Assembly (NCBI RefSeq): GCF_000582785.1
Contig: NZ_HG931173.1
Location: forward strand, 184,736-227,427
DNA: 42,692 nucleotides
Source: Candidatus Blastococcus massiliensis AP3
GTDB lineage: Bacteria > Actinomycetota > Actinomycetes > Mycobacteriales > Geodermatophilaceae
Reading direction: 5' to 3'
The position numbers and the translations under genes were made by a program. The notes beneath the pieces were generated by a model. That model had not been told where the DNA came from. It saw only the letters and a list, made by a program, of their open reading frames with translations, and searched no databases. Position 1 is the first letter of the stretch, and every line of letters begins with the position of its first letter. Positions 16,069-19,341 of this stretch are shown here, piece by piece.

Positions 16069-16707
16069 TCAATTCAAACTGTTCAACCAGTTGGTGAGCA
16101 GCTGAGCGCCGGCGTCGCCGCTCTTCTCCGGGTGGAACTGGGTGGCCGACAGTGCCGCGTTCTCCACCCCGGCCACGAAGCGGTCGCCGTGCTCGGCCCA
16201 GGTGACCTTCGGCGGCGGCAGCGGGCTCGGCGCACCGCCCTGACCGAGCGGGAAGTCGCGGACGCCGTAGGAGTGCACGAAGTAGAAGCGCTCGTCCTCG
16301 ATGCCGTCGAAGAGCACGCTGCCCTTCGCCACGTCGACCTGGTTCCAGCCCATGTGCGGCAGGACGGGGGCCTGGAGCTGCTCGACGACGCCGGGCCACT
16401 CGCCGCAGCCTTCCGCGTCGTGCCCGTGCTCGACGCCGCGGTCGAACAGGATCTGCATGCCGACGCAGATGCCGAGCACCGGGCGCCCGCCGGCCAGGCG
16501 GCGGCCGATGATGCGCGGCCCGTCGACGGCCTTGAGGCCCTCCATGCATGCGGCGAAGGCGCCCACGCCCGGGACGACGAGCCCGTCGGCGTCCAGGGCC
16601 GTCTGCGCGTCGGAGGTGACCGTGACGTCGGCCCCCACCCGCGCGAGCGCGCGCTCGGCCGAGCGCAGATTGCCCGACCCGTAGTCGAGGACCGCCACCT
16701 TCTTCAC
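16069..16707 (-). CDS. hisH: Imidazole glycerol phosphate synthase, glutaminase subunit
   Basis: Class I glutamine amidotransferase that feeds ammonia to HisF. The 212-residue protein has the DYGSGNLRS start (residues 8-16), the nucleophile Cys81 in [15 protein letters not shown], and the catalytic His192/Glu194 in FHPEKSG. A GTG start with TAGCGT 7 bases upstream is chosen; the frame further upstream shows no HisH-like sequence. The gene stands alone: upstream is the inserted plus-strand DUF222-HNH gene and downstream the M28-like peptidase, so it needs its own promoter. Its coding end ([10 protein letters not shown]) uses unusually A/T-rich codons for this window, but the sequence is a normal HisH terminus. 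Confidence 0.96.
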
Positions 16708-16714
16708 GCCTGCC

Positions 16715-16720
16715 ACGCTA
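16715..16720 (-). promoter_or_regulatory. Probable -10 of hisH
   Basis: TAGCGT on the minus strand followed by 7 bases and the GTG of hisH. It would supply hisH with a promoter after its separation from hisB. The remaining part of the 285-base gap (16721-16980) shows no gene or repeat that I recognise. Confidence 0.45.
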
Positions 16721-16980
16721 CCGACCAGCGCACCGAGGGCCGCCGTGATTCCCGCCATGGGACGGGCGTCCGCTCCGCCCTTCCCGCGCGGTGCCATCGC
16801 TCGAGCGCCGGGCACCTCCTGCTGGCAGGGTCCCTCGCCCGATCCGGTCGCCGTCGTGGGCGCTGCCCTACCGGGCGCCTCCCCTCTCGCGCCCAACGCC
16901 CACCGCGTCAAGACCCCTGATGTATCTGTGGACAGGCTTCTGACCTGGGGATTCGCAGTGCCGGATGCCGCTTCCGGCGC

Positions 16981-16986
16981 TAGGAT
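16981..16986 (+). promoter_or_regulatory. Probable -10 of the DUF222-HNH gene (leaderless)
   Basis: TAGGAT is followed by exactly 6 bases and the ATG at 16993, the leaderless layout. The 6 bases are the left half of the LexA-type palindrome described separately. Confidence 0.55.
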
Positions 16987-17002
16987 TCGTACATGTGTTC
17001 GA
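16987..17002 (+). promoter_or_regulatory. LexA/SOS box overlapping the start codon of the DUF222-HNH gene
   Basis: The bases are TCGTAC-ATGT-GTTCGA. The actinobacterial/Gram-positive LexA operator consensus is TCGAAC-N4-GTTCGA, so this has one mismatch in 12 specified positions. It begins right after the TAGGAT -10 and covers the ATG, where LexA binding would block transcription initiation. Several 13E12-family genes of Mycobacterium tuberculosis are known to be under LexA control, which supports the reading. Confidence 0.7.
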
Positions 17003-18231
17003 CCGACTGCGCGACCCCTGTGGAGTGCCTGGAAGGTGCTCTGCAGGCGCTGGCCGGTCAGGACCTGAAGCCGTTGTTCGGGCCCGCGGTGCTGGAGCGG
17101 TGCGGGGCCCTGGTGGTTGCCCGGAACCGGCTGGGCGCCGAGGTGGCCCGCACCGTCCGTGAGGGTGAGCTGACCCAAGCGTCCGAGCACGACGGCGCGG
17201 CGTCGATGGGCGGCTGGCTGCGCGGGCACCACCGCCTGCCTCCTGGTGTCGCCAGCCGGCTGGTGCGCAACGGGCGGGCGCTGGAGCAGCTGCCGGTGCT
17301 GGCCGCAGCGGCTGCGGCCGGCGGGGTCAGCCCGGAGGCGGTGTCGGTGATCGCCCCGGTCGCCTCGGCGGAGAACGTGGCGGCGGCGGAGGCGCAGGGC
17401 GTGGAGCTGGCCGGGATCGATGCCGCCCTGACCAAGGTGGCGATCCTGCGGTCGCACTCGGAGCTGCGGCAGGTGGTCGCTCACTACCTGGCCCGCCTCG
17501 ACCCCGACGGCCCCGAACCGGACCCGACGGAGTGCCGCAGCCTCACCATCGGCCGTGACGGCAACGGGATGGTGGTCGGGCGGTTCGTGCTGGACGCGGT
17601 CGGCGGGGAGAAGCTGCAGGCCGCGATCGAGTCCATCCTGCAGGCCACCCGCCCCGCCGGTGACCTGCGCAGCCGCGCCCAGCAGGCCGGCGACGCGCTC
17701 GTGCAGCTGTGCGACAACGCTCTGGCGTCCGGGAACCTGCCGATCCTGCGGACCGTGAAGCCGCACGTGGTGGTGCGCCTGGACATCGACGACCTCGTCG
17801 ACCCGCACCCCGGCGCGGGTGCCGCCCGCACCGGGTTCGGCGGCATCATCTCCGCCGCCCGCGCCCGCTGGCTGGCCTGCGACGGCAACGTCAGCCGCGT
17901 CGTGTTCGGCCCCGACGGGCACCGCCTCGACCTCGGCCGCAGCCACAGGGTCGTGCCCCCCGCGCTGCGCAGAGCCGTGGAGCTGCGGGACGAGCACTGC
18001 GTGTTCGCCGGCTGCGACGCCCCGTCCTACTGGTGCGACGTCCACCATCTTCTGCACTGGATCGACGGCGGAGAGACGACGCTGGAGAATTCAGGCCTGC
18101 TGTGCGAACGGCACCACACCAAGGTCCACCACGGCTTCCAGATCGTGCGCGACACCGCCGGCCGATGGCACACCTACCGGCCCGACAGCACCGAGATCCA
18201 AATCTTCGAACCCTTCCTCGTCCCCGCCTGA
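16993..18231 (+). CDS. DUF222-HNH endonuclease (13E12 repeat family)
   Basis: A 412-residue protein with an N-terminal helical DUF222 region (about 20-300) and a C-terminal HNH nuclease domain: [10 protein letters not shown] (zinc-type Cys336 and Cys341), [12 protein letters not shown] (His351-352), Asn366 and [10 protein letters not shown] (His374-375). All HNH positions look intact, so it is probably an active, metal-dependent nuclease. The family is present in many diverged copies in actinobacterial genomes and in mycobacteria as the REP13E12 repeats; its role is not settled. It is transcribed against the his genes, between hisB and hisH, with its own -10 and SOS box at the start codon. 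It ends in a strong hairpin. Acquisition by insertion into an older his operon is inference. Confidence 0.92.
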
Positions 18232-18291: not shown

Positions 18292-18528
18292 TCATTCGGC
18301 CGGACGTCCCGGGTCGGTCCACGGCAGGACCGTCAGCTCGGGCCACTCCCCCAGCCAGCGGGCCGCGTTGGTCTCGGCCACCTCCCGCGGTGCGAGCCGA
18401 CGATTCGGGCGCACGACCAGATCGAACAGGTCGTCGAAGCCGTGCGGCGCGTAGACCCGCGGCCGACCGGCGACGTCGACCGTGACGATGCGCAGGAACC
18501 GCTCCCCGTCGGCCGGTCGGCCGCTCAC
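18292..18528 (-). CDS. Short protein resembling the C-terminus of a nucleotidyltransferase-like family
   Basis: A 78-residue protein with VYAPHGFDDLFDLVVRPN (about residues 25-42) and AARWLGEWPELTVLPW (about 55-70). From memory this is the C-terminal pattern of PF06042-type nucleotidyltransferase-like proteins (about 180-190 residues), but the first half with the catalytic acidic residues is absent, and the DNA where it should be encoded holds another gene. The GTG start overlaps the stop of the 59-aa membrane protein (GTGA), so it looks like an expressed member of the his transcript, not random remnant. Either a truncated relic or a natural short form. The family match is a recollection and needs a profile search. 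Confidence 0.6.
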   Translation of the reverse strand: MSGRPADGERFLRIVTVDVAGRPRVYAPHGFDDLFDLVVRPNRRLAPREVAETNAARWLGEWPELTVLPWTDPGRPAE

Positions 18529-18732: not shown

Positions 18733-19341
18733 CTACAGCGCGCCCTTGGTCGAGGGCACGTCGGTGACCCGCGGGTCGATCGCCACCGCAGTGCGCAGCG
18801 CGCGGGCCAGCGCCTTGAACTGGCCCTCGACGATGTGGTGGGCGTCGCGGCCGGCGTAGAGCACCCGCACGTGCAGGCTGATCCGCGCGTTGAACGCGAA
18901 CGACTCGAGCACGTGCTTGGTGAGCGACGTCGGGTAGTCCGGCCCGATCATCGGCGTCATGTTCTCCGGCTCGGCGTGCACGAAGTACGGCCGGCCGGAC
19001 AGGTCGACGGCGGCCTGCGCCAGCACCTCGTCCATCGGGATCGTCGCGTCGCCGTAGCGCGTGATGCCGCGCTTGTCGCCCAGCGCCTGCGCGAACGCCT
19101 GCCCGAGCGCGATGGCGACGTCCTCGACGGTGTGGTGCGCGTCGATGTGCAGGTCACCGTCGGCCTGCACGGTGAGGTCGATCCCGCTGTGCTTGGACAG
19201 CGCGGTGAGCATGTGGTCGTAGAAGCCGACGCCCGTGCTGATCGAGCTCGTGCCGGTGCCGTCGAGGTCGAGCTCCACCACGAGCTTGGTCTCGCTGGTG
19301 GCGCGCTCCACCCGGGCGGTGCGGCGTGCAGGTGCGGTCAT
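18733..19341 (-). CDS. hisB: Imidazoleglycerol-phosphate dehydratase
   Basis: Monofunctional IGP dehydratase (202 residues), step six of histidine synthesis, a manganese enzyme that assembles as a 24-mer. The two internal metal-binding repeats are clear: [12 protein letters not shown] with [12 protein letters not shown], and [10 protein letters not shown] with [18 protein letters not shown]. There is no N-terminal phosphatase domain, so HolPase (HisN-type) must be elsewhere. Its ATG overlaps the hisC stop (ATGA), giving a coupled hisD-hisC-hisB unit. Confidence 0.97.

Follow-up and report, generated by a model that had tools for sequence, protein, structure and literature searches.

In the 42.7-kb window (the whole stretch of DNA analysed, 42,692 nucleotides), a gene for a predicted nuclease of the DUF222-HNH (13E12-like) kind stands between two genes of the opposite strand that we take to be hisH and hisB. 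The features discussed here are as follows.

16069..16719, minus strand: presumed hisH, divergent neighbour given as context, present in each of the 23 genomes of the genus
16907..16912, plus strand: GTCAAG, near the left edge of a conserved promoter module
16927..16935, plus strand: TGTGGACAG, conserved element; on the other strand, 28 of 44 promoters fit YYGTCCACA in this position
16940..16954, plus strand: CTGACCTGGGGATTC, conserved element, possible activator or self-recognition site
16981..16986, plus strand: −10 element TAGGAT, fitting TANNNT, a pattern that 43 of 44 distinct promoters share in this position
16987..17002, plus strand: LexA-type operator TCGTAC-ATGT-GTTCGA (TCGTACATGTGTTCGA), lying over both the start codon and the predicted transcription start
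16993..18231, plus strand: DUF222-HNH (13E12-like) predicted nuclease of 412 aa, predicted to be leaderless
18733..19341, minus strand: presumed hisB, convergent neighbour given as context

A direct read of the sequence confirmed what a preliminary description had claimed for the start of this gene, namely TAGGAT and then a LexA-type palindrome with one mismatch placed on the ATG. No gap separates TAGGAT (16981–16986) from TCGTACATGTGTTCGA (16987–17002), which differs at one position from the LexA box TCGAAC-N4-GTTCGA, and the ATG at 16993 lies within the operator and opens a frame of 412 aa that stops at 18231. As also proposed, the operator bases encode the first residues M-C-S-T, the frame beginning with MCSTDC. 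The placement within the his locus held, as the gene has hisH on one side and the hisB side on the other. The focal gene is, however, on the plus strand and the his genes are on the minus strand, which puts it outside the his transcript.

TCGTACATGTGTTCGA is the only site in the window with at most one mismatch to the LexA box. Five sites have at most two, against a mean of 1.18 in shuffled sequences, 1 of 100 of which reached five. The exact string TANNNT plus TCGTACATGTGTTCGA was present in 14 of the 97 genomes searched (this one counted) and its reversed control in none, and two paralogs in the same genome carry the same layout, all of which argues against a chance origin. The promoter itself has the layout taken to mark leaderless genes, a TANNNT 6–7 nt ahead of the RTG and no Shine-Dalgarno leader, and leaderless transcription is predicted, the −10 element being defined as in PMC3898074. 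A canonical −35 was searched for at this promoter and none was found.

The focal protein matched DUF222 (PF02720) with an E value of 3.6e-34 and 118.9 bits, above the cut-off of 24.4, and HNH (PF01844) with 20.1 bits, just under the cut-off of 21.4; a PHROG HNH profile matched at 4.5e-4. A search of NCBIfam gave no match up to E 0.1, and no credible solved structure of a homologue was found (best E 0.12). Across 24 aligned sequences, including the focal one, the invariant residues of the HNH region are C336, C341, C348, H351, H352, N366, C371, H374, H375, H379 and H380.

LexA-type boxes and PafBC-type promoters in the same genome

Twelve DUF222 genes were found in the genome, and the window gene forms a focal clade with two of them, paralogs whose proteins share 95 and 92% identity with its own. 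In all three, TAGGAT and TCGTACATGTGTTCGA on the ATG are identical. The scan of same-genome DUF222 genes suggested in the preliminary description yielded a box with at most one mismatch, upstream of or on the start, in 7/12 (on the ATG in three); with two mismatches allowed, the count was 8/12. Outside the focal clade, the box has one mismatch in four genes, two in one gene and three in two genes; in the remaining two (L007 and L009) even the best site has at least four, leaving 4/12 without a box within two mismatches.

The genome encodes one LexA-type DNA-binding domain, and three boxes precede its gene, each with TCGAAC as its left half-site. Besides lexA, three genes named by eye (recA, ruvC and one resembling dinB) have the same motif ahead of them, and it is credible as a predicted LexA site in this genome. 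Genome-wide, the box was counted 32 times and its reversed pattern 3 times, a lenient control for so CpG-rich a box. A number of these 32 matches fall within long, coding-looking frames.

PafBC-dependent, RecA-independent promoters have been described as tTGTCRgtg-8 nt-TannnT (PMC5656591). The exact pattern TGTCRG-N10-TANNNT occurs at 6/12 of the DUF222 genes, all of them outside the focal clade, and a TGTCGT variant at the remaining three outside it. There were 25 matches genome-wide on both strands (reversed control, 2), including sites ahead of recA, polA and sbcD-like genes (named by eye). The pattern is thus found at sibling DUF222 genes, unlike the three focal-clade promoters, where it gave no match; PafBC control of the focal gene was rejected on that absence. 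In four sibling genes (L006, L010, L011 and L012) the −10 of the PafBC-type pattern lies inside the LexA-type box, and the two damage pathways would then converge on one stretch of DNA. The LexA box of L011 is degenerate, and the PafBC pattern of L012 is the TGTCGT variant.

Conservation among relatives and across the phylum

A profile built from the three focal-clade proteins retrieved 35 loci, mostly from Blastococcus and Modestobacter, of which 31 entered the promoter count; L080, L085, L087 and L088 were without a gene start. The palindrome proved to be conserved in these relatives, with a box of at most two mismatches at the promoter in 30 of the 31 loci and L082 as the sole exception. 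Translation starts in various places. Some relatives start inside the box, with ATG or GTG at offset 6, and two (L062 and L073) with a GTG at offset 8, in a different reading frame, as chosen by script. In other relatives the box is in place and the start lies 22–36 bases past its first base, often behind a leader with GGAGG. On a tree of 43 proteins, for which leader type was assigned by hand per row and broken or cut genes were excluded, in-box and leadered starts exchanged 4 times with the box retained.

We also aligned 44 distinct promoters on the operator; as they were chosen for having a box, its frequencies among them are not independent evidence. The right half GTTCGA is present in 39/44, while the left half is consistently off the LexA consensus (TCGTAC in 32/44). 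Ahead of the promoter, GTCAAG, TGTGGACA and CTGACCTGGGGATTC form a module of fixed spacing at 16907–16954. GTCAAG lies at the exact distance in 19/44 promoters and CAAG at −78 in 25/44, TGTGGAC lies within two bases of the same place in 31/44, and TGACCTG keeps its exact position in 34/44, the 15-mer CTGACCTGGGGATTC being found with at most three mismatches in 38/44. The reverse complement of TGTGGACAG, CTGTCCACA, presumably resembles a DnaA box; the one paired-box search made, a weak test of that reading, gave no match.

A pattern of the TGTGGAC element and CTGACCTGGGGATTC that did not include the box matched 46 times, in 21 of the 40 genomes, and its reversed control matched nowhere. In the 30 matching loci that were fetched, the box stood at 59–60 bases in 28 and the gene lay downstream in 27. 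The exceptions comprise L221 and L225, which are cut by contig ends, L226, with an apparently decayed box, and L209, with neither box nor gene on that strand. Within its own genome the module is confined to the three focal-clade members. We regard it as a candidate activator site, self-recognition site or both. Several matches (L204, L225, L226, L227, L221 and others) are no more than a few hundred bases away from a contig end. Assemblies are expected to break at near-identical repeats, and copy numbers in draft genomes may therefore be underestimates.

DUF222-HNH genes are multi-copy in many actinobacteria, with up to 30 strong matches per genome. Our survey covered 108 distinct DUF222 upstream regions of Actinomycetota and was not a random sample, as it combined best matches (up to 30 per search) with 60 hand-picked regions, 30 of them from family f8, on which the survey leans (38/108). 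Five regions were too short (L153, L172, L185, L188 and L200), L162 was a duplicate and L177 went unused. A LexA box with at most one mismatch was found in 45/108 regions (best of 179 scrambled half-sites, 4) and a PafBC-type promoter in 42/108 (best of 11 scrambled cores, 1). Both were present in 16/108 and either in 71/108, which suggests that much of the family answers to DNA damage, many of its genes apparently being under a PafBC-type promoter instead of, or in addition to, LexA. The 37/108 regions with neither count against this. Counted by family, 10 of the 20 sampled have the box and 14 have the box or the PafBC pattern. Box-poor families include f5 (1/12) and f2 (0/22), yet 12 of the 22 f2 regions carry the PafBC pattern.

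An in-frame RTG inside a box of at most two mismatches was seen in 29 regions of six families, at offset 6 or 8 in 26 of them; the other three, at offset 4, are doubtful. Related actinobacterial genes thus often appear to share the operator-on-start arrangement, which the preliminary description had thought unusual, a view that its recurrence in six families and its legibility in a published LexA site (Rv3074, below) contradict. TANNNT ends 6 or 7 bases ahead of the RTG in 22 of the 26, and with offset-8 starts the −10 and the box have one base in common in 16/20. The geometry seems to be fixed by transcription, with the box sliding along it.

Regulation of the focal gene

The focal gene very probably encodes a leaderless nuclease of the 13E12 kind under SOS (LexA) control. 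This reading, which was that of the preliminary description, stood up to the sequence tests made of it at core SOS genes, in relatives and with scrambled half-sites. In the mechanism that we infer, RNA polymerase would read the TANNNT −10 element and initiate six bases beyond it, with the A of the ATG as the first base of a leaderless mRNA. Bound to TCGTAC-N4-GTTCGA, a LexA dimer would span the start site and the first codons and so block initiation directly. Upon DNA damage, RecA filaments would trigger self-cleavage of LexA and the nuclease would be made, such predicted nucleases probably being switched on in this way. As the mRNA would be leaderless, an operator over +1 must cover the start codon; the position of the operator is, in this mechanism, set by transcription and not by coding.

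There is precedent in Mycobacterium tuberculosis, where the family bears the names REP13E12 or 13E12 (DUF222 with HNH; PMC10589994). The earlier claim that this family includes LexA-controlled members agrees with the HNH genes reported in the M. tuberculosis RecA/LexA response (PMC8151990, PMC4181829). The HNH homologues Rv3074 and Rv3776 are strongly induced by moxifloxacin, Rv3074 by 29-fold (PMC7911356), and LexA binds the Rv3074 site with a KD of 3.86 nM (PMC8607333, Table 1). As in the focal gene, the printed oligo, TATTC-TCGAACACATGTTCGA, has a TANNNT (TATTCT), a box and an ATG that opens a frame inside the box. That ATG, presumably the start of Rv3074, lies two bases further in (register 8), unlike the focal start (register 6). 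The operator-on-start layout would thus have a precedent that goes unremarked in the parts of PMC8607333 available to us. An SOS gene of M. tuberculosis translated from its transcription start has also been described (PMC2897130); it is a different gene, with the SOS-type control and the start at the 5' end of the transcript that are predicted for ours. With the REP13E12 genes the focal gene shares DUF222, a probable HNH region, multiple copies, a predicted link to LexA and signs of gene conversion, and differs from them in its clade's own upstream module, the TCGTAC variant of the box and start register 6.

Could the palindrome have no regulatory role and result merely from conservation of the N-terminal coding sequence M-C-S-T? 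It does double as the code for the first residues, and M/V-C-S is seen again in the in-box relatives. However, the leadered relatives keep the box where it is non-coding and its spacers are free to vary, which largely refutes this idea, and L062 and L073 read through it in another frame if the GTG picked by script is right. Codon 2 is TGT in 16/16 in-box genes, a codon used for only 15 of the 138 other cysteines of these genes, although the 16 genes are related and the count is no independent test. The six bases ahead of the ATG are strongly conserved as well in the 44 aligned promoters. The leadered relatives and the rare codon make a strong case, and we rejected the by-product explanation as scarcely credible; judged from these comparisons, the constraint is on the DNA of the box and not on the protein. 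The left half-site TCGTAC, for its part, might be explained by another repressor with a similar site, ArsR-type or specific to the clade, in place of LexA. It is found in 32/44 promoters, off the LexA consensus and unlike the TCGAAC of the lexA boxes here, and the E. coli ArsR motif is close to the mycobacterial SOS box (PMC8151990). Against this, TCGTAC (32/44), TCGAAC (5/44) and TCGCAC (4/44) replace one another at this position among clade members, and TCGAAC is the left half both at lexA and at other DUF222 promoters of the same genome, which makes a different repressor very unlikely.

A further alternative would add to LexA control of the gene and not replace it. We consider it quite possible, if somewhat short of probable, that the module from TGTGGAC to CTGACCTGGGGATTC serves as a binding site for an activator of its own or for the nuclease, compensating for a weak −35 as PafBC would elsewhere. 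Its elements keep their spacing in most of the 44 distinct promoters, the focal promoter has no −35 match, the module occurs in its own genome only with the focal clade, and box and PafBC pattern are paired at other DUF222 genes (16/108). On the other side, no factor could be assigned to the module, and the presumed DnaA-box resemblance had no match in the single paired-box search.

Copies beside hisH and their evolution

Of the 23 genomes of the genus, 13 have a DUF222 gene beside hisH, which in some is frame-broken or cut by a contig end; one further contig ends just past the promoter, one locus holds only a remnant and 8 have none in the stretch fetched. All 14 hisH-adjacent promoters (13 with a gene, one contig-cut) carry TANNNT and a box with at most one mismatch. 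The 8 intact his-locus copies nevertheless need 8 changes on the tree, and a single clade was rejected (AU test, p 3.8e-49). Their nearest neighbour is a paralog from the same genome in 5/8 cases, a non-his copy of another genome in 3/8 and another his copy in 0/8. In 10/10 pairs, the likeness between paralogs is confined to a stretch that opens at about −84 or −60 relative to the operator and closes no more than ~100 bases from the stop codon. Such a pattern would be expected if fixed copies converted one another, or if a promoter-plus-gene cassette were copied time and again, and the frequent clustering of his-locus copies with same-genome paralogs points to concerted evolution. In M. tuberculosis, REP13E12 loci are among the most gene-converted, with 87 events (PMC13061034).

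It is conceivable, though unlikely, that promoter module, LexA operator and nuclease gene together make up a selfish cassette that spreads by SOS-timed, homing-like gene conversion. Released from LexA, the nuclease would cut sister sites that lack the cassette or have diverged, perhaps at the module upstream of its gene, and the simultaneously induced RecA repair would copy the cassette across. If true, such conversion would keep the copies of one genome alike, and the clade's upstream module would be a candidate cis site for self-recognition.

To our knowledge, DUF222-HNH (13E12) genes have no established function; a damage response of the family would make that function testable. More generally, the layout suggests a rule for leaderless genes, that a repressor which has to sit over +1 also dictates the first codons. 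A literature search found no description of the phylum-wide pattern or of an operator on a DUF222 start codon. As far as our searches reach, the phylum-wide rule, the rigid clade-specific module, the DNA-level constraint on the box, the bounded promoter-plus-gene cassettes and the his-locus copies that are not one clade are new.

Searches for mobile carriers gave no close match to the focal gene in phages (one partial match, 46% over 25%) or plasmids (five partial matches, under 30% identity), and carriage by either was set aside for want of close matches. PADLOC anti-phage defence profiles gave no match up to E 1, and among the 25 inverted-repeat pairs listed of 134 none was above 83% complementary. 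Homology to his loci that have no DUF222 gene ends near 16745 and resumes near 18319–18332, with roughly 100–160 bases unaligned.
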